DNA of 64,000 nt from IMG/VR virus record IMGVR_UViG_3300047560_000348, positions 1-64,000 of that record. The stretch is one strand, 5' to 3'. Position numbers and translations under genes: made by a program. The notes under the pieces are model-generated. The model saw nothing but the letters and a program-made list of their open reading frames with translations, was not told the origin of the DNA and did not search any database. Source of the DNA: a virus. Below, one piece after another: positions 415-60,329 of the stretch. Position 1 is the stretch's first letter, and each line of letters begins with the position of its first letter.

Positions 415-443
415 ATTATAGCATGTACTACGGTAGTTTGCAA
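415..443 (-). promoter_or_regulatory. Promoter of the tRNA cluster
   Basis: Reading the minus strand, -35 TTGCAA (443-438) is followed after 17 nt by -10 TATAAT (420-415), with an extended TGC before the -10. The predicted start near 408 leaves a leader of about 35 nt before tRNA-Asn. The -35 overlaps the end of the metallopeptidase gene. Confidence 0.7.
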
Positions 444-1480
444 GTCAAACTTGGAGAAATTTTCATAAAATCTTTATATTCTTGTTTATAAAAATCTTCT
501 GGGGTAATTCCAAATGATTCTTTAAAAGCAAGTCTCCAGTCACTAGTAGTTCTCATACGTTCATAGAAGTTCAACATTGCTTTATGCCCACCATAGTATG
601 TGATCAATTCTGCCACAGAGACAGCTCCATATCCATACTGCTTTGCCCAGTTGCCATTGCCTGTTTCAATTAACTTCATTTCAGAAACAAACTTATCCTG
701 CGTCTTTAGATCATTATATCCAGGAATCATGCAACCAAATCCAGCTAGATGACCTCCAATATTTTTTTCTACATTCTTATCTTTAACTTGTGCTAGCCAC
801 CAACCATAGTATGTTGCAGCACCTTCATTTAGCCAAGATGGAATATCAAAGGCACGTTGATAGTTTGTTACCTTACCAAGTTTTGTTCCGCCTGTTGTGT
901 ACAATACACTATGAACATATTCATGTGCTAATAGTTGGTTTCTCCACCACTCAGTTTTATTTGACCACATACAAGAAATTGAACTCCACTCGTTACCGCC
1001 GTTACCATTCTCACAGGTTTTACCGTTGATATCAGTAGAGTAACCCTTCCATCTATCGTCTACACGATTGATTTCTGGAGATGCCCCCCAAGCAACGTCA
1101 AGTTCAGATGTGACGATAGAGTAGTAATATGTTGGTGCATAGAATGGAGAAAAGACACTACCTATAAGCTGATAGACTTTTGGAATATTTTTCTTAATTG
1201 CTGGGTCAAGGCTTGGCCCAATCTTTAGGTTTTCAGTTGGAAAAACATATCCGCCATAATTAATATACTTATCTACATCTTTGAATGATGCTACTAACGT
1301 AGAAAAATCTGATCCTAACGCCTTTGGTGTGGCAATAGGAGTAGGTTTTGCTGGCGTTGTAATAGTCTTACAAGAAATTGTCTTTTTTGAAGATGAACAC
1401 TTTACAGTTGCTGCATCTGCACAACCAGCACCAGTAAACAATAATGCAAAAGTTAGGCCAAATACCATAGTCTTTTTCAT
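428..1480 (-). CDS. Secreted HExxH zinc metallopeptidase (peptidase MA-like)
   Basis: This 350-residue protein starts with a Sec signal peptide: a basic N-terminus, a hydrophobic core and an ADA|A cleavage site near residue 23. A lipoprotein reading around Cys20 is weak, because position -3 is Gly. The catalytic signature is HEYVH at 186-190, then NEG with Glu219 as likely third zinc ligand 29 residues on, the gluzincin pattern of peptidase MA-like domains. Paired cysteines in the N-terminal half fit an exported protein. The SD is AAGGAT. It is unlikely to be an endolysin, since peptidoglycan hydrolases of this family are not usual; cleavage of host surface or secreted proteins is my inference. 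Family is fairly sure, role unknown. Confidence 0.75.
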   Translation of the reverse strand: MKKTMVFGLTFALLFTGAGCADAATVKCSSSKKTISCKTITTPAKPTPIATPKALGSDFSTLVASFKDVDKYINYGGYVFPTENLKIGPSLDPAIKKNIPKVYQLIGSVFSPFYAPTYYYSIVTSELDVAWGASPEINRVDDRWKGYSTDINGKTCENGNGGNEWSSISCMWSNKTEWWRNQLLAHEYVHSVLYTTGGTKLGKVTNYQRAFDIPSWLNEGAATYYGWWLAQVKDKNVEKNIGGHLAGFGCMIPGYNDLKTQDKFVSEMKLIETGNGNWAKQYGYGAVSVAELITYYGGHKAMLNFYERMRTTSDWRLAFKESFGITPEDFYKQEYKDFMKISPSLTCKLP

Positions 1481-3272: not shown

Positions 3273-5534
3273 TTATTGTCTCCTTGTATTGTTAGACCCA
3301 CCTGTAGTACCACCTGATGAAGCAACAGAAACTGCATTCATCGCTGCACCTGCAGCAACGACTGTTGCAACTACCATGTGTTGAGCCTCTTCTCTCTCAG
3401 CAGGGCTCATGTCTGCACCAATAGAACCAAGGGCAGCAAGGGCTGCTCCTGGGTCAGAAAGCAATTCTCCTACGAATGCTCCTGGGTCAGAAATCAATTC
3501 AATATTTGCAGCATCTTGTGCTGTGATCACAACAGCATTTCCACTCTCATCTGTTCTAACATCAACTGGTGTTGAAGGTGGTAGATCAGAATAGGATATT
3601 CCTGCTGCCTGTATTTGTTCGCTAGATAATGCTTCTCCTGGCTTTAGCTCTTCTACTAGAGATAAAACAATTGCTGCTTTTTCTTCTTCTGTAACTACCC
3701 CGTCTGCCTTGGAATCATCTACAATGTTTTCAGTTTTTGCTGCCTCTTCTGCAGCCTTTTGTTCAGCCTCAAGTTTTGCCTTTTCCTCAGCTAGCCTCTC
3801 TGCTTCTGCAAGTTTTTCTGCTTCTAGTCTTTCTGCCTCAAGCTTTGCAGCCTCTTCTGCAGCCAATCTTTCCGCTTCTAGTCTTGCTTCTTCTTCAGCT
3901 TTGGCAAGTGCTTCTGCTTCTGCTTTAGCCTTAGCTTCTGCTTCTGCAGCAAGTCTTGCTTCTTCTTCAAGCCTTAGCCTTTCTTCTTCTGCTGCTTTTG
4001 CTTCAGCTTCTAATCTTAGCTTTTCTTGTTCTGCAGCAATTCGTTCTGCTTCAGCTTTTGCAGCAGCTTCTGCAGCAGCTTTTGCCTCTGCCTCTGCTTT
4101 AAGTCTAGCTGCCTCTTCTGCAGCTGCTTTGGCTTCTGCTTCTAGCCTAAGTCTTTCTGCCTCTGCTCTTGCTGCAGCTTCTGCTGCCAATCTAGCTTGT
4201 TCTGCAGCTATAGCAGCTTGTCTAGCAGCCTCTTCTGCTGCTGATTGCTGTGCAATAACAGTAGACAGATTGCTAACTGATCCACTTGCACTTTGAACTG
4301 CTGAAACTGCAATTGCTGACAAGTTAATAGCTGTTGTTATTGCCTGATTGGCATCTTGGATTGCAATTTCCTGTTCAGCCTGTGCTGACACGACTGCTTC
4401 TTCTGCAATGGCAACTTCCGATGTAGCTAAAGATACCTGATCTAATGATTGATTTTCAATTTGAATTAAGCTATTTAATAATGTATTGCTGGACTGTAGT
4501 TGACTATTTGCATCTGCTAAATTTTGAACTTGTTGCTGTGTAGGGCTTGAGGTAGTTGTAGAAAAAGCTGTTGCAGGAACTATTGACCAACTACCACCCT
4601 GAGTCCACATAAGATTAACATTGGCACCACCGCCATTTTCATAATAGTATAGTGTCATTGGAATTGGCTCACCAGCCTGTACATTATAGGTGATTGCTGT
4701 TCCTCCGCCACCCTTGTCATACCAGTCATTAATAACTGTTTGTCCATTTAGTTTTAGGATAACGCCATCATCTGCTGGAGCATAAAGACCAACTGTTCCA
4801 GTATATTGAGATGTAATATTACCACTAAACTTAACAATAAAGTCTTCTGCTATCAAGTTAAAAGCTGCTCCACTACCCCAGTTAAAGTTAATCTGAGTTA
4901 CAGTAGTTGTATATATTGGTGATCTACCAATCTGTTCTGGAAGTGGTGGGGCATTGTTGTATCCACTCATATTATAAATTTCTGCCTTAAGGCCAGAGGA
5001 TAACCCTATTGTTTGATTAATAGCAGTCTGTACCGATTGAACATTTTGAATATCTGTTGCAACCACAACTTCTTGTGCATCAACGTTGGCAGATGCTTCT
5101 GCTAGGTCTGCTGTAGCATTTACTAGGTTTTCCTGGGCATTATCTAAATTCGATTCTGCCTGAGTTACTGTTGCTGTAGCACCATCTACTACAGAAATCT
5201 TAATGTTGGCTTGCTCTACAGCTGTCTCTGCAGAATCTACTGCATTAGCAGCAACCTCGATTGCCTGTGTCGCTGTAGTAATTGCTGTAGAAATTATTTC
5301 TGTTACTGAGACTGACCCTGAGCTCTGTACCGCTGATTCCATATTTTGAGAAACAACCACTAAGTCAGCATTAGCTGTTTGTAATTGTACAACTACTGTT
5401 GCTAGATCGCCCTCTTGAACAACGGTTACGGTAGCAGAATTTACCACTTCATCAGCTGATGCAGTAGCAAGTGGCCATAGAGTCATGACTCCAGTTAGCG
5501 TAAGTAAGGCAAATATTGCCCAAGACTTCTTCAA
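3273..5534 (-). CDS. Secreted PA14-domain protein with long coiled coil
   Basis: The 753-residue protein has a Sec signal peptide (cleavage near ASA|DE, residue 27) and a helical region (30-175). A PA14 beta-domain follows at about 181-326, including YAPADDGVILKLNG and NDWYDKGG. Next comes an Ala/Glu/Lys/Arg-rich coiled coil (about 430-625) made of AEAE/AEEAARL-type heptads. The acidic C-terminal part ends in a weakly hydrophobic Ala/Val segment and TTGGSNNTRRQ. PA14 domains commonly bind glycans. A signal peptide means export by the host, unusual for a virion fibre, so a surface-displayed or periplasmic role is likely. The neighbours are nrdF upstream and the small membrane-protein pair downstream. 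Confidence 0.7.
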   Translation of the reverse strand: MKKSWAIFALLTLTGVMTLWPLATASADEVVNSATVTVVQEGDLATVVVQLQTANADLVVVSQNMESAVQSSGSVSVTEIISTAITTATQAIEVAANAVDSAETAVEQANIKISVVDGATATVTQAESNLDNAQENLVNATADLAEASANVDAQEVVVATDIQNVQSVQTAINQTIGLSSGLKAEIYNMSGYNNAPPLPEQIGRSPIYTTTVTQINFNWGSGAAFNLIAEDFIVKFSGNITSQYTGTVGLYAPADDGVILKLNGQTVINDWYDKGGGGTAITYNVQAGEPIPMTLYYYENGGGANVNLMWTQGGSWSIVPATAFSTTTSSPTQQQVQNLADANSQLQSSNTLLNSLIQIENQSLDQVSLATSEVAIAEEAVVSAQAEQEIAIQDANQAITTAINLSAIAVSAVQSASGSVSNLSTVIAQQSAAEEAARQAAIAAEQARLAAEAAARAEAERLRLEAEAKAAAEEAARLKAEAEAKAAAEAAAKAEAERIAAEQEKLRLEAEAKAAEEERLRLEEEARLAAEAEAKAKAEAEALAKAEEEARLEAERLAAEEAAKLEAERLEAEKLAEAERLAEEKAKLEAEQKAAEEAAKTENIVDDSKADGVVTEEEKAAIVLSLVEELKPGEALSSEQIQAAGISYSDLPPSTPVDVRTDESGNAVVITAQDAANIELISDPGAFVGELLSDPGAALAALGSIGADMSPAEREEAQHMVVATVVAAGAAMNAVSVASSGGTTGGSNNTRRQ

Positions 5535-9192: not shown

Positions 9193-10191
9193 TTACTTAA
9201 GTGTTGCAACCTTAGCCTTTGGGAACTTCTTGTTCCACTTTGCAGCAAGTGCATTGTACTTTGCCTTTGCAGACGCAGTGTTCTTAGCTTCAGCGATAGC
9301 CTTTGCCTTCTCAAGCTCAAGCTCTGCCTTTACCTTTGCAAGTTCTGCCTTAGTTGCATCGTGTGCAACCTTCTCTGCAGCAAGTTCTGCAGTCTTAGCA
9401 GTTACTTCTGATGCAAGGTCACGAACTGTAACATCAGCAATACGAACCGCAACAGGTGTTGCTAGTCCAGTTACAGCAGATGCTACAGTTGCAGTTGCAA
9501 GCAGACGAACAGTTCCTGAAGCAGGAAGTGTAATGTCCTTGGTCTTTGTGCCAAGAGTTGCAGTTGCAGTGTCTGTAGTTAGAGCGAATGTCTCGTTTGT
9601 AGTTGCTGTAGTAACCTGAAGGTTAATGGTTGCACCACCCTTAGCATTACCAAATACATCCACACCACGAACGGTTGCAGTGTATACAGTACCAGCAGCA
9701 CCAGTTGCAGATCCAGCAAGTTCAATTGCGTTCAATGCACCAGCAGTACCCTGGAAGTAGTAAGTAGTTGTGTTTCCACCAACAGTTACTGCAACAGAAC
9801 CAACTGCTGTAGTAGTAGTGAATACATAAAGGTCAGCAGATGTACCTGTACCAGTTGAAACAGATACAGATGATGTGCCTGCAGCAGCAGTTACTGGAGA
9901 ACCAGAAGCAGCAAGTGCAGTAACGATCTTACCGTTAGTTGCGACAGCAGAAACAGTAGTTCCAGTGTCAAGGCCTGTTAGGGCAATCTTTAGTGCGTCT
10001 GCAGCATCTACAGAGTTATCTGCAGGAACTGGTAGAGCGACTGGTGCTGAAATAGCAGTACCGCCAGTAGCAGCTGAACCGCCAACTGTTAGAGCAGTAG
10101 ATACTGCAGCACTTGCAGGTGTTGCGATTACTGATGTTGCAAGGGCAGTGGCTGCAACCAATGCGAATGCGATCTTCTTAATTGAAGTCAT
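9193..10191 (-). CDS. Secreted Ala/Thr/Val-rich surface protein
   Basis: The 332-residue protein has a signal peptide with cleavage near ASA|AV (residue 28). A long low-complexity beta-rich body of Ala, Thr, Val and Gly suggests Ig-like or S-layer-like strands (about 30-255). A Lys/Ala coiled coil follows (about 260-305), then a short tail KYNALAAKWNKKFPKAKV. From memory, this C-terminus resembles exported proteins of freshwater actinobacteria; I could not check this. It is a single-gene unit between terL and the terminator at 9150, with SD AAGGAAA. It may be host-derived, coating the infected cell or masking receptors. Confidence 0.6.
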   Translation of the reverse strand: MTSIKKIAFALVAATALATSVIATPASAAVSTALTVGGSAATGGTAISAPVALPVPADNSVDAADALKIALTGLDTGTTVSAVATNGKIVTALAASGSPVTAAAGTSSVSVSTGTGTSADLYVFTTTTAVGSVAVTVGGNTTTYYFQGTAGALNAIELAGSATGAAGTVYTATVRGVDVFGNAKGGATINLQVTTATTNETFALTTDTATATLGTKTKDITLPASGTVRLLATATVASAVTGLATPVAVRIADVTVRDLASEVTAKTAELAAEKVAHDATKAELAKVKAELELEKAKAIAEAKNTASAKAKYNALAAKWNKKFPKAKVATLK

Positions 10192-11990: not shown

Positions 11991-12516
11991 CGTTATTCAC
12001 TATCGTAATTGTTTCTGACGAATTCTTGCTAATTCTAGAAAGTCTACGCATAATTTCATCACGGATTTCTGGATATTCAGACGCAATGTCTTTTAGGATT
12101 TGGATAAGTGCTTCTTGTCTCTCCTCGATGGCAATCATCTCTTCTGCAAGCTCTTTATTTTCTAATAGTCCTGCTTTTTGTAGCATATCAATACGTGTCT
12201 TCTCAAGGTCCATAACAAGCTTAATACCCTGAGTCTTTGCAGCCAGGTTTGCTGTTGTCGTTGCCTCATCAATTACTTCGTAGGCTTTTGAGATTAGCTT
12301 GCTATAGTGGGTGTCAGCACCAACCAAAGCCTCTTTAGCACGTGCACGGATAGCAGCATTGTCTGCAGCCATCTGTCGCCACTCACTAATGTATGCCACA
12401 ACTGTCTGCCTTGGCATAGCAAGTTCTTTAGAAATCTGTGTTGGATCGCTACCAGCAAGGTATTTTTCTACTACCTTGTTTACACTATCCAAATGCTCAA
12501 TTAGTTTATCTTCCAT
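11980..12516 (-). CDS. terS: Terminase small subunit
   Basis: The start at MEDKLIEH gives 178 residues. A helix-turn-helix lies at about 19-50 (YLAGSDPTQISKELAMPRQT), followed by a long helical oligomerisation region. The reading frame extends 26 codons upstream, but that part overlaps the preceding gene and has no ribosome site. Position directly before terL and the HTH plus coiled architecture indicate TerS, which recognises phage DNA for packaging. Confidence 0.8.
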   Translation of the reverse strand: MEDKLIEHLDSVNKVVEKYLAGSDPTQISKELAMPRQTVVAYISEWRQMAADNAAIRARAKEALVGADTHYSKLISKAYEVIDEATTTANLAAKTQGIKLVMDLEKTRIDMLQKAGLLENKELAEEMIAIEERQEALIQILKDIASEYPEIRDEIMRRLSRISKNSSETITIVNNDVR

Positions 12517-13252
12517 ACTTAAAAGCACTCTCCATTCGCTCTTTAATTTTAGCAATAGCTTCTGGTGATTGCAACTGCTCTTCTGTTGGTGCAAATAATG
12601 CTCTTGTGGTTAATCCAGAAACATTCTCTACTGGTACATAATAAAATAATGCTAGGCTTTCTCTGTTTACCCCAGCTGGAGCATGACATGCATCATCTGC
12701 AGGTAGGCCATGCCAAAAGTTTTGATCTGTCTCAAATACCACAGCACGATTAAATACTGGGTCTACATCAAAAATCTTTTCTTTTGGCTGACCGTTCTCA
12801 TCATCCCAAAACTCTAACTGGCCACCATACTCTGGTTTCCAATCTGGATTAGTATAAACAATAATGTTTAGCTTACGTCTTAGCCCTAGCTTTGGGTGTA
12901 GGTCAGCATCCTTGTGTAGGTTTAGCCTTCCATTGTGTGCGTGTAAATGCATACCACCTGCATGCAAGCCATAATCTGCAATTAGGCCATTGATTCCAGT
13001 CATGCCCTCAAGTTGATCTACGAAGTCTTGAGACGACAGATGAAACATAGCACGATAAATGCTTCCTGGATACCAGTCCCAGTGTGTGGACAATCTTTTT
13101 TGTTCAAACTCAGTGTGGTTACGAGTCAGCCATCTTTCATCATCGAAGTCATAAAAGTCTTCATTGATTGCCGTAATAGTGGCATCATCAAAGAAGTCAT
13201 CAATAATCCAAACATTAGTTGGATACGACTTGTGCTGTATTCTTTCGTACAC
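12506..13252 (-). CDS. 2OG-Fe(II) oxygenase
   Basis: The 248-residue protein has the iron triad H113-K-D115 and H181 and an arginine at R197 (NRESLALFYY) for 2-oxoglutarate. The YGGQLEFWDD strand is typical of the prolyl-4-hydroxylase-like family. It starts with GTG, preceded by AAGGG at a suitable distance, and overlaps the upstream gene by 38 bp. A His-rich stretch MHLHAHNGRLNLHKD may help metal binding. The substrate is unknown. Confidence 0.8.
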   Translation of the reverse strand: MYERIQHKSYPTNVWIIDDFFDDATITAINEDFYDFDDERWLTRNHTEFEQKRLSTHWDWYPGSIYRAMFHLSSQDFVDQLEGMTGINGLIADYGLHAGGMHLHAHNGRLNLHKDADLHPKLGLRRKLNIIVYTNPDWKPEYGGQLEFWDDENGQPKEKIFDVDPVFNRAVVFETDQNFWHGLPADDACHAPAGVNRESLALFYYVPVENVSGLTTRALFAPTEEQLQSPEAIAKIKERMESAFKYGR

Positions 13253-15576: not shown

Positions 15577-15879
15577 CTAGCGAGTTATGTACTTTAGAGC
15601 AGCAACCAAATTATTGATTGATTCTGCAGCAGTAAAGTACAAGTTTTTCTTCGCTCTATCTCCCTTATCTACGTTAGCCATCCAGGTTGCTTTAAAAGAC
15701 ATTTTAGCAGCAATTGCCTGTAGGCGTACGATCTCAATTGTTGCGACATTCAGAGGAATGTCTGGTTTAACTATTAATTTTGCAATAAATGTAAGTGCTG
15801 TAGTTAGCTCTTCATCTTGCATATAATCAGCAATGTCCGCTAGGCCATTGATCATGTCTAGTGTTGTTTCATTACTCAT
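15577..15879 (-). CDS. Conserved hypothetical, all-helical
   Basis: The 100-residue protein begins MSNETTLDMINGLADIADYM and is predicted helical throughout, with no Cys pairs or membrane segments. It overlaps the upstream oxygenase stop by 8 bp and lies 7 bp before the Cas4-like gene. It is probably part of the replication and recombination operon. No function can be assigned. Confidence 0.65.
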   Translation of the reverse strand: MSNETTLDMINGLADIADYMQDEELTTALTFIAKLIVKPDIPLNVATIEIVRLQAIAAKMSFKATWMANVDKGDRAKKNLYFTAAESINNLVAALKYITR

Positions 15880-16681
15880 TCACAAAGCCTGCAATCTCAT
15901 TTTGTGGAATGCCAGCCTCAAGTCCCATAGCGTTATAGATATCCCATGCTGCAATCATCTTTGGATGTGCAGCGACTTCTTTTCCATAAGCCTCTCTGCC
16001 CTCGAAATTCAGTTGTCCATCAATAGGATTGTCCATGCCAGTCCATCTATAGTTTGTTACTGGACAGTAATCAAAGCTTACAATCTCGCAGAACTCTCCA
16101 TCTTTCCACTTACGCTTTGGTCTCCAGTGAACCTGATTAACAGCACTAAAGATAATGGCATCGCCCTTCTTAAGGTTATACTCTTTATCGTCTACCCACA
16201 AAGTCCAGTCTTCGATGTTCTGGTCAAGGCAGTAGTTAAATGTTACCAGATTCTCGTCTGCATCCAGATGTGGTGGAAGTGATGGTGCATTCTTTCCATC
16301 ACCATACTTCATGTTATAGTCGATATAGTTAAAGTGTGTCAACCTAATTGGGTCCTGGTGCAAAGGCTTTGCATATGTATCCATCGTTTGCTCAATTGAT
16401 GGTGGACATAGGAACTCGATCAGGAGTCTGGACATGTGAATAATCTTTTTTGGATGAAAGCGTGACTGTCCGTAATACTGTTCCTGAGAACCTGGCATTG
16501 CATAGTATGAGTTATCATACATTAGCTGCCTGTTCTTTTCAATTACATTACGTAATTCTGCCACCTGATCATCTGAGAATGGCTTCTCAATATAGATTGG
16601 TAGTGCTTTGTTATATTTATCAAAATCCGTTAGCCATTTATGCATGGGTGCTGGATTGTATGGTCTTTGGTTATTAATCAT
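15872..16681 (-). CDS. 2OG-Fe(II) oxygenase
   Basis: The 269-residue protein has the iron site H138-x-D140 (PPHLDAD) and H185 in VHWRPKR. The segment HxRP...K..DGE is also seen in the adjacent upstream oxygenase, so the two are divergent paralogues. It is joined to that gene by an ATGA overlap. The substrate is unknown; the N-terminal 100 residues are extra relative to minimal members and may bind a partner. Confidence 0.75.
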   Translation of the reverse strand: MINNQRPYNPAPMHKWLTDFDKYNKALPIYIEKPFSDDQVAELRNVIEKNRQLMYDNSYYAMPGSQEQYYGQSRFHPKKIIHMSRLLIEFLCPPSIEQTMDTYAKPLHQDPIRLTHFNYIDYNMKYGDGKNAPSLPPHLDADENLVTFNYCLDQNIEDWTLWVDDKEYNLKKGDAIIFSAVNQVHWRPKRKWKDGEFCEIVSFDYCPVTNYRWTGMDNPIDGQLNFEGREAYGKEVAAHPKMIAAWDIYNAMGLEAGIPQNEIAGFVNE

Positions 16682-17238
16682 AAGTATTTGTACTCCTCTT
16701 TGTTACCATTATACACGAAATAGAAGAATAGCATAGCTACCTTTTCTCCATCATTAAAAGTTTTTGCTGGTCTACCATGTAGTTGATTGTAAGGCTCAAA
16801 CACAAGGGCATCATTATCCCTAAGTATTACCTCTCTGCTATCTTCATCTAAAATTAATGGCCACTCAGTATTCGCCTCTAGCTGATAGTCAACTAAAAGA
16901 TTGTCTGCTTTGTCTTTATGTACATATAGAACTGGTTTGCCGTGTGCTTTAGAATACTCTGTATATGCTAATGATAATGGCTTCCCAATGCCCCAATGTT
17001 CTGGCACCTTAGATTGAATTGTTTTAACTATATTATCTGGTATATCTGAACCAGTAATATCGATAATTATTTTACCAAGAGTTTTATTATTAATCGTATA
17101 CTCAAATGTGTGGTATTGGTTTACCTCAGCATCTTCAAGGGATACCATCTTTCGAGTTGCTTTTTCATTAGCAAAAAAATCCTTTAACTGTGCAATCTCT
17201 TCAGGACTGAACAGGTTACGAATAACTAAATCATTCAT
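16678..17238 (-). CDS. 2OG-Fe(II) oxygenase
   Basis: The start MNDLVIRN (186 residues) is chosen because GGAGG lies six bases before it; an ATG two codons upstream directly abuts the SD. The iron ligands are H107-K-D109 and H154 in LHGRP, followed by KTFNDGE. A Lys or Arg for 2-oxoglutarate is less clear than in the other copies. It is the first of two coupled oxygenase genes downstream of the possible PD-(D/E)XK nuclease. Confidence 0.7.
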   Translation of the reverse strand: MNDLVIRNLFSPEEIAQLKDFFANEKATRKMVSLEDAEVNQYHTFEYTINNKTLGKIIIDITGSDIPDNIVKTIQSKVPEHWGIGKPLSLAYTEYSKAHGKPVLYVHKDKADNLLVDYQLEANTEWPLILDEDSREVILRDNDALVFEPYNQLHGRPAKTFNDGEKVAMLFFYFVYNGNKEEYKYL

Positions 17239-17521
17239 TGCCATCCTCCATTATTTGCTCCAATAAAGATAACTCAATAACTGCTAGGCGTGTTTTTGTG
17301 CCTTCGCTACCCAAGACAATGAAGATGGCAGGATCGTTTCCATTTTTAATGGCATCAGTACTTGCCTTAGCCCAAACATCTTTATTGATTGTGAAAGATT
17401 TTCCAACCTCTTTAAAATCAACAGTAAAGTTTTTCCATGTAGCATCACCTTTGTGGGTATTCCTACCAGAATTCTTGTGCTGCTTGGCACCAATTCGCTT
17501 GCTCTCGCCTCGTTCACTCAT
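17231..17521 (-). CDS. Possible PD-(D/E)XK resolvase-like nuclease
   Basis: The 96-residue basic protein begins MSERGESKRIGAKQHKNSGR. It has a D26 followed by V-D35-F-K37, which resembles the PD-(D/E)XK core of small Hjc/VRR-NUC-type phage endonucleases, and a helix after INKDVW. The leading Glu, Gly and Lys-rich N-terminus also fits that family. The match is by eye only. It lies between the zinc-ribbon gene and an oxygenase gene, near recA. Confidence 0.5.
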   Translation of the reverse strand: MSERGESKRIGAKQHKNSGRNTHKGDATWKNFTVDFKEVGKSFTINKDVWAKASTDAIKNGNDPAIFIVLGSEGTKTRLAVIELSLLEQIMEDGNE

Positions 17522-54920: not shown

Positions 54921-54949
54921 AGTATATTTTATCATACTATACGTGTAAA
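54921..54949 (-). promoter_or_regulatory. Promoter for the LamG-like adhesin gene
   Basis: On the minus strand TTTACA (54949-54944), 17 nt and TATACT (54926-54921) match well. It lies at the 3' end of the oxygenase gene. The leader is short but includes AGGAGAAACTT. Confidence 0.7.
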
Positions 54950-55471
54950 CCAGCGTGGAGTTGTATATCTGATACCTTCTGCAATTGGCTTGACTCCATG
55001 GATATATCTTGGATTATCTGGAAAGGTTAGCAGATCTCCAGGTTGTGGTTTATGAGAAATATCATATTCTGGGAAATAGATATCTCCACCAGTATAGTCG
55101 TTATTTATATAGATAAGTGTAGCAATATCATTTGGCTTACTTGCATCATAGTGCTCATGCATACCCCACCCAGACTCAAACCTAGCTATGTGTGACATTG
55201 CTGGCTCAAATGGCTTGAATTCGCCTCCATAATGCTCTACGACAAAGTCATAGACTTTCTTGCCCCATTCTGTCACCAGTGCCCTTACAGCCTGTGTGTC
55301 AACGTCATCCTTCTTGAATACATTGACGGTAAACTCTTTTTCTCCATTACCATACTCATCAAATTCGCCATCATTCTTTCTTGAGTATGCATCAATAATT
55401 TCTATGACATCTGCTGGCATAAAACCTGGAATGTAATGAATCTGAGACTTCAATTCTTCTTTTGTCATCAT
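54932..55471 (-). CDS. 2OG-Fe(II) oxygenase
   Basis: The 179-residue protein has H107-Y-D109 (MHEHYDAS), H158 (YIHGVKP) and R168 (GIRYTTPRW), the full 2OG-Fe(II) set, with TGGDIYFPEYD as the conserved strand. It overlaps the small zinc-ribbon gene by ATGA. It belongs to the prolyl-4-hydroxylase-like group and is distinct from the three tandem paralogues upstream. Confidence 0.85.
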   Translation of the reverse strand: MMTKEELKSQIHYIPGFMPADVIEIIDAYSRKNDGEFDEYGNGEKEFTVNVFKKDDVDTQAVRALVTEWGKKVYDFVVEHYGGEFKPFEPAMSHIARFESGWGMHEHYDASKPNDIATLIYINNDYTGGDIYFPEYDISHKPQPGDLLTFPDNPRYIHGVKPIAEGIRYTTPRWFTRIV

Positions 55472-55642: not shown

Positions 55643-56308
55643 TCATATTAGTGGTACCCAATGTTGAGACACTCCTCCGCCATCTTGAATTGATTCTACA
55701 ACTCTTGTATCATATGCCAGAGTTATTCTCTTTTTGTTTGAATCGCCCCAGTGACCACGAGCATGCTTATGGCCAGTTTCCGACAAAATGGCTCTATTGT
55801 TTTTATTTTCATTTCTAAATGGTGTTACACCATTGATTCTATAATGTGTTGTTGATGGCTCTGCATTGATGCAATAATATCCGTGAATATCTGGCATTCC
55901 CATACCACCAGAGTGTTCGTGTAGGTTTGGCTCAATGTGGTATGTTTCATACTCTTCTAAAGAACAATCATCTGCGTCTTCAACGTTAATCCAACCTTGA
56001 ACATAGTATTCCATTTCATCAAAATCTTTACCATAATGGTCACATGCCTCTTTAGCCATATCTCTTACTGCTGCATAAAGCTTTCTAATTACCTTATGCT
56101 GCATTTGAAAAATATTATAGTTGCTTAAAAGTCTAGTGGTGAGGCATCCATGATTTTCTGCCTTAATGCTTTGTGCATACTCTTTTGTAATACCTGGCAA
56201 TTCGCCATCTAACATCTTCTGTTCTACGACAATACAGAAATCATAAAAATCTTCCAAGTCATTGTCAGATATATCTAGGTATCTTTCAAAGAATTTGTGC
56301 TCTGCCAT
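55643..56308 (-). CDS. Oxygenase-like paralogue 3 of a tandem triplet
   Basis: The 221-residue protein shares with its two upstream neighbours the N-terminal HKFFERYLD, GW(F/I)N(I/V)N-like strand, HEHSG..G(x)PDIHGYYC(I/V)NAEPS and NRA(I/V)LSETGHKHA. The HxH and later GHxHA histidines resemble the metal sites of HxH-type 2OG-Fe(II) oxygenases such as the PF13759-like fold. SD is AGGAAATTAAT. Substrate unknown. Confidence 0.6.
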   Translation of the reverse strand: MAEHKFFERYLDISDNDLEDFYDFCIVVEQKMLDGELPGITKEYAQSIKAENHGCLTTRLLSNYNIFQMQHKVIRKLYAAVRDMAKEACDHYGKDFDEMEYYVQGWINVEDADDCSLEEYETYHIEPNLHEHSGGMGMPDIHGYYCINAEPSTTHYRINGVTPFRNENKNNRAILSETGHKHARGHWGDSNKKRITLAYDTRVVESIQDGGGVSQHWVPLI

Positions 56309-56309
56309 A

Positions 56310-56972
56310 TTAATTTCCTAACTTGATCCAGTGATCCCCAACAAATGCTGTCTTAACCATTGATGGGTTTTTTGGACTTATGTCATAGGCAATGGTGATT
56401 CTATTGCCATCCCAGTTCCAGTTTTCAATCGCATGTGGGTGACCAGTTTCCGATAAAACTAGTCTATTGTTTTTATTTACATTTTCAAACAACTTATTAA
56501 CATCTCTATTGATGTGATAGAACGTTGATGATGGTTCTGCATTCACACAGTAGTAACCATGGAATACTGGTGCCCCAGTTCCATGCATGTGATCGTGGAA
56601 CCACTCTGGATGACCTAGAGGAGACTCTCCACCATAAACAGATTTTTCATTAATATTAAACCATCCACAAATATAGTAATCAGCAGCATCAAAATCAATG
56701 CCATAGTACTCACATGCTTCTTTAGTTGTCTCTAGTAGTCCTAAATATAGCTTTTTAATTGCTGGATGATCCCAGGTGAATATGTTGTAATAATCACCAA
56801 GCATGGTTGTCAGTGCGTCTCCACGCTGGTGCTTTTCATCAAATACGTCTTTTGGTGCATTGATGCCATTCGCATAAATAAAATCTCTTTTATCGACAAG
56901 GTATGCCGTTAACTCTGATAAATCATTGTCTAGGTATCTATCAAAAAACTTATGCGATGGCTTCTCAATCAT
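56310..56972 (-). CDS. Oxygenase-like paralogue 2 of a tandem triplet
   Basis: Starting at MIEKPSHKFFDRYLD (ATGA overlap with the preceding stop) the product has 220 residues. The frame extends 35 codons upstream, but that part overlaps the previous gene and is not conserved in the paralogues. Candidate metal site is FHDHMHGTG with downstream GHPHAIENW; DGNRITIAYD matches the distal strand of the family. Confidence 0.6.
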   Translation of the reverse strand: MIEKPSHKFFDRYLDNDLSELTAYLVDKRDFIYANGINAPKDVFDEKHQRGDALTTMLGDYYNIFTWDHPAIKKLYLGLLETTKEACEYYGIDFDAADYYICGWFNINEKSVYGGESPLGHPEWFHDHMHGTGAPVFHGYYCVNAEPSSTFYHINRDVNKLFENVNKNNRLVLSETGHPHAIENWNWDGNRITIAYDISPKNPSMVKTAFVGDHWIKLGN

Positions 56973-57646
56973 GCTAGTGGGATCCAGTGCTGTTCTGCAT
57001 TGTGTCCACCACGCTGTAGGTATCTGAATGGTGTTACATCGTAAGCAACAGTAATTCTGTCGCCTTCCCAGTCCCATTCGCCCTGTGAGTGTGGGTGGCC
57101 CATTTCTGAAAGAACCAATCTGTTGTTCTTATTAATGTTTTCTTTTTCTTCGTCAAAACACATGTAGTATGTTGAAGATGGCTCTGCGTTTACACAGTAG
57201 TAACCATGGAAATCTGGTGCCCCTGGACCACCGTGTTCATGCCAGCCAAGTTTACCTTGGCCTGCGTGGTTAATATTAAACCATCCTTGAATCATGAACT
57301 GCTCTTTTTCAAAGTCAAGCTCATAATATTCACATGCTTCACGAACCAGCTGACCGATTCCCTTGTACAACTTATAGATTCCGTCAATGTGGAACTGGAA
57401 TACATTGTATTGTCTCCACTTCATAGTGGAAATACTGCCAGACTCTTTCCATACTTCAAATGGACTGACTGGCGTTACCCCAGCAAGTTTGGCATTTTCA
57501 ATTAGTTCGTATCTAATTTTTAGCTCTTTTGCCAGCTCATCTAGATCGTTATCTAGGAATGCCTCAAAGAATTTATGAGGCTTTGTGCTTGCACTTGTAC
57601 TTCTAAGTGTCGTTTGGTCTTTATACGACATACCCATATTGGACAT
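56969..57646 (-). CDS. Oxygenase-like paralogue 1 of a tandem triplet
   Basis: The 225-residue protein has GWHEHGGPGAPDFHGYY with H136/H138, and GHPHSQGEW with H184/H186, followed by DRITVAYD with R197. The pattern resembles a cupin/double-stranded beta-helix oxygenase with an HxH metal pair. GGAG sits seven bases before the ATG. A promoter-like TTCAGA-17-TATACT is upstream. The three paralogues probably arose by duplication. Confidence 0.6.
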   Translation of the reverse strand: MSNMGMSYKDQTTLRSTSASTKPHKFFEAFLDNDLDELAKELKIRYELIENAKLAGVTPVSPFEVWKESGSISTMKWRQYNVFQFHIDGIYKLYKGIGQLVREACEYYELDFEKEQFMIQGWFNINHAGQGKLGWHEHGGPGAPDFHGYYCVNAEPSSTYYMCFDEEKENINKNNRLVLSEMGHPHSQGEWDWEGDRITVAYDVTPFRYLQRGGHNAEQHWIPLA

Positions 57647-57700
57647 TTGTGAACTCCATTCTATGTCTCTTTTATAGATTAGTATACCATAAGTGGCAGA

Positions 57701-58552
57701 CTATCTGAATGAGAATACTTTGAATGGAGAGAAGGTAAATACTCCAAATGGGGCAAAACCAAATACGCTAAAGAATCCAAAGGCTGGAGCAAAGCTAAAT
57801 ACGCTGAAGAATCCGAATACTGCAAAGAATCCGAATACTGAAAAGAATCCGAATACTGAGAAGAAGTTGAATACTGAGAAGAAGTCAAAAACAGAGAAGA
57901 ATCCGAATACTGAGAAGAAGTTGAATACTGAGAAGAATCCAAAAACGCTAAATGTTGTAATTGACGCAGATGTTCCAATAGCAGAGTTACCATTGCCATT
58001 GGTAGCATAAACATCATATGTCTGTGCAGTTCCAGCTTCTTGGTTTACGTTAACTGGGGAGGTAGAAGAATCTCCAGACTTACCATCACTAGATGTCCAG
58101 TGATAGTTAGTAATAGCTTTTCCACCATTATTAGTTGGTGCAGTCCAAGAAAGCTGGTCATATGCTTGACCAGTGCCAGAGTCTGGAGATAATACAGATA
58201 CAGATGTTGGTGCATCTGGAACTGTTGTAATCAGCACAGATGCTGAGGCAGCAGATGATCCAGATGTTCCAGAAGCATTTGTAGCAGTAACAGTAAATGT
58301 CACATTTGTATTAGATGGAATTCCAGTAACTGTAATTGGAGATGAAGACCCAGTTGCAGTCTGCCCAGTTGAAGCAGTTACAGTATACGATGTTGCAACT
58401 GGAGAGTTAGCAGGTAGAGAAAAGCTAACTGATGCTGCACCATCGTTAAATGCTCTGCCAGTACCAATGTCTGTTGCTGAAACGCTTGTAGGTTCCATTG
58501 GTTGCAAAAAGTCATTGGCTTGCTGTGAGTGTCTACCTGCTCTTTTGCTCAT
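57701..58552 (-). CDS. Fibronectin-III protein with Phe-rich hexapeptide tail
   Basis: The 283-residue protein has two Fn3-like domains (about 20-109 and 113-200, the second with QLSWTAPTNNGGKAITNYHW). A very hydrophobic C-terminal region follows, built of hexads (F/G)FFSVF(G/N/D) from residue 201 to the end. No signal peptide is present. It lies among tail-fibre genes, so it is probably a host-binding tip. The repeat recalls glycine- or phenylalanine-rich adhesin tips of phages, but I know no close match. Confidence 0.7.
   Translation of the reverse strand: MSKRAGRHSQQANDFLQPMEPTSVSATDIGTGRAFNDGAASVSFSLPANSPVATSYTVTASTGQTATGSSSPITVTGIPSNTNVTFTVTATNASGTSGSSAASASVLITTVPDAPTSVSVLSPDSGTGQAYDQLSWTAPTNNGGKAITNYHWTSSDGKSGDSSTSPVNVNQEAGTAQTYDVYATNGNGNSAIGTSASITTFSVFGFFSVFNFFSVFGFFSVFDFFSVFNFFSVFGFFSVFGFFAVFGFFSVFSFAPAFGFFSVFGFAPFGVFTFSPFKVFSFR
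57704..57952 (-). repeat. 18-bp tandem repeats encoding FFSVF(G/N/D) hexads
   Basis: About 13 degenerate 18-bp units lie head to tail. Early units are nearly pure; later ones change to SFAPAF, GFAPFG and FSPFKV. On the opposite strand the same DNA reads as Asn/Thr/Lys-rich, but no gene is expected there. Such repeats could change copy number by slippage. Confidence 0.85.
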
Positions 58553-58577: not shown

Positions 58578-60329
58578 TTAGGCTGACAAGTCTCCGTAGA
58601 CAACCCATGTGTTTGCTGCTCTCTTCATAAGAGTTGCAGAAGACCACTGAGTTCTCAACTTTAGACCTGGTGTTGCGTTTACAGTAACTCCACCTGCACC
58701 TGCAATTGTAACCTGTCCAGTAGAAGTCTGGAGGATATCAAGAGTGGTTCCGATTGGGTAGTCTACTGATGAATCTGCTGGGATTGTTAGAGTTGTTGCT
58801 GAAGAGCTTCCAACTTCAATAAGTGTATCTCTTTCATTAAGATTTGACAGTGTGTATGATGCTGTCTTTTGAGAGATTGTAGTGATAGATGGAACACCCT
58901 GCTTTGTCTGGATTCCGTCTGCAAATTCGACTCCACCTAGCTTTAGGGTATCAAATGTTGCTGTTCCAAAGTCAACGTGGCTATCTGTTGGCTCAGCTGC
59001 ACCAGAAACAAGCTTCCACTTTCCATCTGTTGCATCACGAACAATACCTGTGTGGAAGTGTCCTGAGTTTGAGTCGCCATACGCACCAAAGATACCAATA
59101 TCAAGAGTGTCTGTATCGTACTGCTCTGCAGCAAGGTAAATTAGTGAGTCTGTAACCTCAAGGTTGGTTGCATCTACTGTTGTGGTTGTTCCCTGTACTG
59201 TAAGGTTTCCTGTAATTGTCAAATTCTCAGCAGTTGCGTTACCAGTGATAGCTGGAGCAACCTTTGGAGCATATGTAGCTGCTGCTGAAGATTCTGCTGC
59301 TGTCTGTGCATTATCTGCCTTGGCCTGGGCACCTGTCTGTGTCTCTAGCTCTGCAGTATCTGCAATTCCGTGTACAGATGTTGTGTCTGAGTTGTGTGTT
59401 CCAACTGCATCATCTGCATATGTCTTTGTTGCCAAAGCTGCGGTATCTGAAATACCATGTACGTTTGTAGTGTCTGCATTGTGATCAGAAATTGCTCCTG
59501 ATGCTGCATTGTCTGCATAAAGCTCAGTTGCTACTGTACCGTCAATTGCTACTGTAATCTTGTTAGTAGAGTCGTCATATGTGGCTGTAATGCCTGTACC
59601 GCCCTCTACTGCGTTACCAAGGGCATCTTGAGCACGTTCAGTAGTGAAATATAGGTTTGCACCCTCTGCAACGTTATCTGTTGTAAGACCTGCAATATCT
59701 GATTCAATTCCAGACACAGTGGTGTTCAATGTATCAATTGCTGTTCCCTGTGTGCTATTTGTTGTCTCAATTGCTGCAACAGAATCAGACAAATCTGAAA
59801 TATTTCCAGTGTGTGTTGCTAGGGTTGTCTGAATAGTTTGAACTGCAGAATCATTATTTGTCTGATATGTCTCTCTTGCAGATGTTTCTGTTGCAAGGTT
59901 TGTTGTGAGTGCTGTAATATCTGTATTAATATCTACAATAGTCGCTGCTGTAGATGTTGACAAATCGCCAATATCAGCAGTTAGATCTGAAATAGCTGTA
60001 GTTAGTCCAGAAGCAAGCTCAGAAAGAGTGTCTAGCTCTGCAGGAGCTGACTGAATAATATTGCTTAGCTGAGAGATTGGAACCTGAGCGTTACCATCTA
60101 GTGTAGCAACACCATTAGCAGATGCCTTCTCTGCGTCCTTGACATATCCGCTAATGTCAAGATCATCAAAATTCTTAAAGTATGTTAGGCTGGTCCAAGC
60201 TGTTGTACCATCACCAATCTTAAATTGTCCAGAATCGGACTCAAAGCCGATTTCACCAGCAGAGAGAATAGGGTTTGCAGCAGTCCATTGTGCTGCAGTA
60301 CCTCTGCGTTGCTGCATTCTTGTTGCCAT
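58578..60329 (-). CDS. Tail fibre with tropism-determinant-like N-terminus
   Basis: The 583-residue protein begins MATRMQQRRGTAAQWTAANP and continues with GEIGFESD and FKIGDGTTAW, the N-terminal motif found in major-tropism-determinant-like and phage hyaluronidase-like fibres. A long repeated region of Asn/Thr/Ala (LYFTTERAQDAL; TKTYADDAVGTHNSDTTSVHG) and a C-terminal beta domain follow. It has SD GAGGAG. Part of the fibre cluster. Confidence 0.75.
   Translation of the reverse strand: MATRMQQRRGTAAQWTAANPILSAGEIGFESDSGQFKIGDGTTAWTSLTYFKNFDDLDISGYVKDAEKASANGVATLDGNAQVPISQLSNIIQSAPAELDTLSELASGLTTAISDLTADIGDLSTSTAATIVDINTDITALTTNLATETSARETYQTNNDSAVQTIQTTLATHTGNISDLSDSVAAIETTNSTQGTAIDTLNTTVSGIESDIAGLTTDNVAEGANLYFTTERAQDALGNAVEGGTGITATYDDSTNKITVAIDGTVATELYADNAASGAISDHNADTTNVHGISDTAALATKTYADDAVGTHNSDTTSVHGIADTAELETQTGAQAKADNAQTAAESSAAATYAPKVAPAITGNATAENLTITGNLTVQGTTTTVDATNLEVTDSLIYLAAEQYDTDTLDIGIFGAYGDSNSGHFHTGIVRDATDGKWKLVSGAAEPTDSHVDFGTATFDTLKLGGVEFADGIQTKQGVPSITTISQKTASYTLSNLNERDTLIEVGSSSATTLTIPADSSVDYPIGTTLDILQTSTGQVTIAGAGGVTVNATPGLKLRTQWSSATLMKRAANTWVVYGDLSA

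Follow-up and report, generated by a model that had tools for sequence, protein, structure and literature searches.

What is the role of a protein end in which nearly every second residue is phenylalanine? The gene that raises this question lies at 57701-58552 on the minus strand of the window, the 64,000-base stretch analyzed here, which corresponds to bases 1-64000 of a 68,135-base record (GC 40%) of an uncultured virus of bacteria. It encodes 283 amino acids followed by a stop codon, and its aromatic repeat tail, residues 201-283, is encoded by 57704-57952, exactly where the original prediction had placed a Phe-rich hexapeptide tail (codons 201-283 of the minus-strand ORF 58552-57701). We favor the possibility, to which we give about an even chance, that the product is a structural accessory of the tail fibre, most likely situated at or near its distal end, where the aromatic tail would adhere to the surface of the host, to similar tails, or to both.

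The tail runs from FSVFGFFSVFNFFSVFGFFSVFDFF... to ...FSPFKVFSFR and includes 38 Phe among 83 residues (46%), in keeping with the earlier estimate of about half; it holds no Leu, Ile or Met. Self-identity is 0.62 at a lag of six residues and 0.66 at a lag of 12, whereas the remaining lags between 2 and 11 give 0.11-0.30, and Tandem Repeats Finder reported an 18-bp period at 57806-57940 (7.5 copies, score 172). The six-residue period is therefore as predicted, but the associated count of about 13 units was reached by including a drifted part: strict FF(S/A)VFx hexamers number only nine (eight FFSVF and one FFAVF), and the last ~30 residues consist of octamer-like FAPF/FSPF units of the form F(A/S)PFxVFxF, ending in VFSFR. 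When the tail codons were compared with those of the closest distinct relative (L010), we found 24 synonymous and 7 non-synonymous differences and no indels, where random single-base changes would be expected to be ~21% synonymous; by this comparison the window's tail is under purifying selection. We also considered an antisense or other-frame gene, as a plus-strand ORF (57693-58010) and a second minus frame are open here. This was rejected because the relatives keep only the Phe frame (aromatic residues make up a fraction of 0.38 in the coding frame over 60 relatives, and no other frame averages more than 0.20) and because the substitutions are mostly synonymous.

The portion of the protein preceding the tail (57953-58552, minus strand) is made up, according to AlphaFold2, Pfam and alignment, of a conserved basic motif, KRAGRHSQQANDFLQP, and two Fn3-like domains. 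AlphaFold2 predicts a short helix in the motif (residues 5-13) and two beta-sandwich Fn3-like domains with a pLDDT of 93-98 over most residues. The Pfam fn3 profile scored 22.8 bits, just under the cut-off of 25 that is passed by relatives L019, L028 and L050, and we assign the protein to Fn3 on the basis of its modelled fold and, via these relatives, of the profile. The tail has no secondary structure in the monomer model (pLDDT mostly 38-54), a prediction that neither shows nor excludes an assembled form, such as the beta-structured tip suggested in the original prediction.

A profile search of IMG/VR returned 470 related stretches, from which the best 80 loci by tblastn were kept, and an aromatic low-complexity tail was present at the end of all 60 distinct relatives examined. 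Given that selection by tblastn could have biased the 80 loci towards the query, a second scan was seeded with a distant member (L107); it provided 13 further distinct proteins, and all 13 have aromatic (PFFP-type) tails. Conservation of the repeat among relatives is thus borne out at the level of an aromatic tail. Over the 60 relatives the tails are 37% Phe, 23% Pro, 7.9% Gly, 3% charged residues and 1.4% Leu, Ile and Met combined, and Phe, Tyr and Trp together average 38% of tail residues. The motifs themselves vary widely and include FFSVFG hexamers, FGVFGFSP octamers, YSFTP and FGFTP pentamers, PFFPPFFP, FFSPPG, and FGA and NFY triplets. On a tree built from the Fn3 part alone, many inner branches of which are weakly supported, we counted a minimum of 15 changes of motif class and 22 of the C-terminal module; across this rewriting an aromatic, uncharged, Leu/Ile/Met-poor make-up persists.

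Relatives of the protein are already in databases, named only 'Fibronectin type III'. The closest structural-library matches (up to 48% identity) were entries named 'Fibronectin type III [uncultured Caudovirales phage]', such as A0A6J5NYB8, which give the domain name only; function or tail is absent from the entries seen. What would be new is the aromatic tail on a fibre-associated protein, as the open literature that we searched yielded no description of phenylalanine-rich phage tails. No cultured-phage member was detected by tblastn against 50,697 phage records, a search that, with low-complexity sequence filtered out, relies mainly on the Fn3 part. A cellular origin was rejected: the contig scan gave a single hit, in a Chitinophagaceae MAG, on a contig of 3.2 kb that is probably stray phage DNA.

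It had also been proposed that unit number could vary. Whole-unit differences do separate some close relatives, with L046 and L051 differing by 5 amino acids (one FGFTP), L025 and L054 by 6 (two FGA), and L069 and L071 by 23 with identical Fn3 DNA; the tails of the window and L010, on the other hand, are equal in length, and to this pair the proposal does not extend. Differences of this kind between near-identical relatives could be indicative of a repeat linker under little constraint, drifting by slippage and having no specific role, and TP, VTP or GSPV repeats occupy the same place in divergent members of the PASTA-domain proteins discussed below. We nevertheless consider such a linker very unlikely, as the window's tail is under purifying selection, composition is fixed across all motif classes, and the tail is C-terminal, with no domain after it, in the window and in many relatives.

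A second scenario, put forward in the original prediction, is that the tail is a hydrophobic anchor inserting into a membrane or a mycolate layer. The window's own tail is hydrophobic enough to suggest this, with a GRAVY of 1.53 and 65% of its 19-residue windows passing 1.6. However, most other classes are not hydrophobic: the class averages for YSFTP (FTP5) and FFSPPG (FFxPP) tails are 0.45 and 0.27, the NFY tail scores -0.88, and hydropathy across tails spans 1.66 to -0.88, such that only the window's class would suit a membrane span. Leu, Ile and Met are nearly absent over all tails and prolines are many, and neither tail composition nor hydropathy revealed a hydrophobic, aliphatic-rich span as a kept feature of the relatives. 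The conserved property is aromaticity, not hydrophobicity, and it is mainly for this reason that a membrane or mycolate anchor is unsupported; we regard it as highly improbable.

Gene order is more informative as to where the protein may act. Directly upstream, across a 25-bp gap, is a tail-fibre gene (58578-60329, minus strand) with an Mtd_N-like N terminus (PF18454) and matches to PHROG tail families. Its last ~110 residues form a C-terminal domain ending in VYGDLSA that is common to the record's second fibre and to minor tail proteins of Gordonia phages. Using a profile of this domain, we found that: (i) 68 of 71 Fn3-tail genes come directly after a fibre gene that carries it, at a median gap of 25 bp, and (ii) the same is true of 36 of 37 genes for a second type of aromatic-tailed protein, in which the tail is joined to a PASTA domain (median gap 4 bp). 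Furthermore, (iii) all 13 Fn3-tail genes of the L107-seeded sample follow a fibre ending in GDLTA or GDLSA and (iv) a 623-aa ORF in L146 (829-2697, minus strand) is a natural fusion of the fibre C-terminal domain, a YSFTP tail, a PASTA domain and a further tail. Gene order therefore upholds the assignment of the Fn3 protein to a tail-fibre module.

Among cultured phages, the fibre C-terminal domain was detected in 258 records, most often annotated 'minor tail protein'; Gordonia phages account for 223 of these records. In the two Gordonia phages that were read, Ali17 (gp36-gp37) and Tayonia (30-31), the fibre with this domain is likewise followed at once by a gene whose product, of ~198 aa, has a basic N terminus in which RKYQANN resembles, by eye, SQQANDF; unlike the window's protein, this one gave no Fn3 or PASTA match in our hands and has no aromatic tail. 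Because the fibre domain occurs mostly in Gordonia phages and the terminase is closest to those of Streptomyces phages (~54%), the host is probably an actinobacterium; that it might be an aquatic low-GC actinobacterium is a guess from the 40% GC.

A position directly behind a fibre gene is also typical of fibre-assembly chaperones such as T4 gp38 or Tfa, and there is precedent for release of such a protein, T4 gp38 leaving once the fibre is assembled (PMC12892980). By analogy, the tail might hold the nascent fibre end until folding is complete, with the Hint domain that some relatives carry cutting it free. Several observations make a chaperone quite unlikely, namely that Pfam and PHROGs gave no chaperone-family match, that Fn3 and PASTA modules serve in display or in wall binding, and that turnover of the tail on a conserved stalk looks host-facing.

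The PASTA-domain proteins provide a further view of the tails. The one in this record (64211-64756 of the record, minus strand; L008 14212-14757) lies just past the window edge, has 181 amino acids and a Phe tail of the same kind as that of the window's Fn3 protein (FFNVFNFF...VFSFR), and is preceded by a gene ending in the same domain as the first fibre. We found 31 IMG/VR loci encoding PASTA proteins that begin with a conserved WASSKGM motif; all 22 aligned members matched the PASTA profile PF03793, and the match to PknB PASTA structures had an E-value of 2.4e-10. The 25 genomes in which both tails were readable showed a 3-mer cosine between Fn3 and PASTA tails of 0.59 within a genome versus 0.25 between genomes, a value not reached in any of 20000 permutations (p<1e-4), and the result held after collapse to 10-14 genomes. 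The end-module class of the two tails matched in 19 of the 25, and in L107 and L062 even a Cys-rich end is common to both proteins. The tails were unlike in at least 4 of the 25 genomes (L099/L128, L054, L108/L132 and L078), where FGA was paired with TP, FGFSP with VTP, or FxVF with polyproline, and for this reason we describe the matching as a tendency. Part of it is due to common descent, for which we have only partly controlled. In the window's genome, a recent gene conversion event between the Fn3 and PASTA tails was ruled out by a nucleotide identity of ~74% and the lack of a long identical stretch, the longest perfect match listed being at most 21 bp. As a separate observation, divergent PASTA proteins in the L099-L119 range have tails of VTP, TP, GSPV or Thr repeats with Cys-rich inserts in place of aromatic ones.

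One scenario that would explain this matching is that tails bind one another, either bundling the fibres or forming a self-associating coat around the particle, while other domains bind the host. Consistent with such co-assembly, the Fn3 and PASTA tails of one genome are alike in motif type and often in end module (L062/L142, L107, L039/L143), a likeness that in the window's genome does not stem from recent gene conversion. The mismatched genomes, the inflation of the match by shared descent and the lack of predicted structure in the tail all count against it, and we judge it unlikely as the principal role.

Immediately downstream of the Fn3-tail gene are three paralogues, all on the minus strand, at 56969-57646, 56310-57077 and 55643-56308. 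Their listed ORFs overlap, and annotated starts in this region need care; the true start of the second is probably further in. Searches of Pfam, NCBIfam and PDB gave no sequence match for the paralogues. An AlphaFold model of the first (pTM 0.81) gave 3bvc and 2rg4 as best fold matches and also matched several prolyl hydroxylases, at a moderate TM of about 0.5-0.6, and we take the family, to which the second and third belong by membership, to have the predicted double-stranded beta-helix fold of 2OG-Fe(II) oxygenases and to be putative enzymes. They are followed by a 2OG-Fe(II) oxygenase of a second family (54932-55471, minus strand; PF13640). Of 62 Fn3-tail genes, 46 are followed within 3 kb by at least one oxygenase-like gene (34 of them within 200 bp) and 16 have no such gene; none of 27 PASTA-tail genes has one within 200 bp. 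One oxygenase-like family has 132 of its 134 members downstream of Fn3-tail genes, a count made on fetched DNA from loci centred on the gene, duplicates included. In addition, 15 of 15 PFFP/FFxPP tails occur with the PF13640 family and none with the other, non-PF13640 family, which accompanies 15 of 15 FxVF/NFY tails. We rejected this pairing as a tree-backed association, as the tree provides too few independent changes and the association does not reach significance there. By eye, ORFs resembling 2OG-type oxygenases are also found away from the tail genes (2208-2741, 12506-13252, 15872-16681 and 16678-17244, minus strand), the first of which belongs to the family of the PF13640 oxygenase at 54932.

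These neighbours raise the possibility, as an addition to the fibre-accessory model, that the tail is a substrate in which Phe, Pro, Asn/Asp or Ser residues are hydroxylated, tuning stickiness. The location of the genes next to Fn3-tail but not PASTA-tail genes, the near restriction of one family to that place, the agreement of family with motif class and the resemblance in fold to 2OG enzymes, prolyl hydroxylases among them, all point this way. Hydroxylation of the tail is still, in our estimation, rather unlikely, given that 16 Fn3-tail genes have no such neighbour, that the family-motif pairing reflects few independent changes, that 2OG oxygenases are common in aquatic phages and that the fold match is moderate, with none at the sequence level.

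Many relatives carry, after the tail, a domain of ~150 residues that by profile matches inteins (4e2u, E 8.2e-7) and the bacterial intein-like (BIL) domain (2lwy, E 8.9e-6). This Hint domain is absent from the window's protein. Cys1, the block-B His and the terminal HN are complete in some relatives (L063, L060) and partial in others, and a third set has Ser in place of Cys1 and no HN. The open literature searched held nothing relevant on Hint-bearing fibre proteins. In L034, L047, L049, L056, L070 and L081, VPVP/TPVP and Cys-rich segments break the aromatic tail, which picks up again as FGAFGA ahead of a Ser-type Hint domain. A fuller picture, that of a novel type of fibre-tip system in which interchangeable aromatic tails match between the two fibres of one phage, neighbouring 2OG-Fe(II) oxygenases are dedicated to tuning them chemically and an intein-like domain trims them in certain lineages, is one that we would not expect to hold in its entirety. 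Were it to hold, it would provide a role for one group of phage 2OG oxygenases, many of which are unexplained.

Returning to the fibre-accessory model, our working mechanism is that the short N-terminal motif mounts the Fn3-tail protein on the fibre, that the two Fn3 domains serve as a stalk and that the low-complexity C-terminal tail is exposed. The tail would act as a 'sticker and small spacer' sequence, with Phe and Tyr spaced by Gly, Ser, Pro, Thr, Val and Asn, using aromatic contacts to adhere to the host surface, to the like tails of the PASTA-bearing fibre protein, or to both; its motif would often be rewritten between phages, as host-range parts are, and tend to match within one phage. 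Aromatic stickers with small polar spacers also characterize FG-nucleoporin and prion-like low-complexity regions; Phe density is several times higher here and we claim no relationship. Presence in the virion, position at the tip, exposure of the tail and adhesion are all things we infer. In favor of the model are the fibre linkage in all three samples, the L146 fusion, the aromatic tails kept by all relatives examined through repeated changes of motif, the 24:7 ratio of synonymous to non-synonymous differences and the within-genome matching; against it are the unstructured tail of the monomer model, the genomes with unlike tails, the Gordonia counterpart without an aromatic tail and the failure to detect a cultured-phage member.

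There is precedent for a small protein of this type. In T2-type phages the adhesin gp38, with low-complexity, glycine-rich motifs and hypervariable loops, caps the fibre protein gp37 (PMC6851490, PMC12892980). The T-even gp38 proteins (T2, PP01, S16; PDB 6F45) are alike in being small fibre-capping proteins that combine low-complexity repeats with variable host-range segments (PMC6851490, PMC12892980), and the Fn3-tail gene likewise comes directly after a fibre gene, whose product would be the distal fibre. Unlike the present protein, gp38 has a helical attachment domain, a beta-helix and a polyglycine-II sandwich (>50% Gly), in place of which we see Fn3/PASTA stalks and aromatic tails with 8% Gly and no glycine-rich polyglycine-II domain. 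A phmmer search of PDB with the window's protein gave only eukaryotic Fn3 and chance matches and no gp38 homology. Because sequence and glycine content both fail, we place the protein outside the gp38 family; the likeness is one of position and of a conserved mount paired with variable low-complexity repeats, and the best reading is that it would work like T-even gp38 adhesins yet be unrelated to them.

If this reading is correct, it would define a class of fibre-tip protein in which an aromatic repeat with almost no charged residues takes the place that glycine-rich or folded adhesins occupy in other phages; the phages concerned are uncultured and probably actinobacterial. As the tail classes are directly comparable, the role of aromatic low-complexity sequence on a particle becomes testable.

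Elsewhere in the window, a 332-aa protein encoded at 9193-10191 (minus strand) has a signal-peptide-like start and by eye resembles an actinobacterial surface protein, making it a possible mimic of a host surface protein. Two further proteins with signal-peptide-like starts are encoded at 3273-5534 and 428-1480 (minus strand); one of the pair has a long Ala/Glu-rich repeat (tandem repeats at 3870-4175) and one a metallopeptidase-like HEYVH motif.
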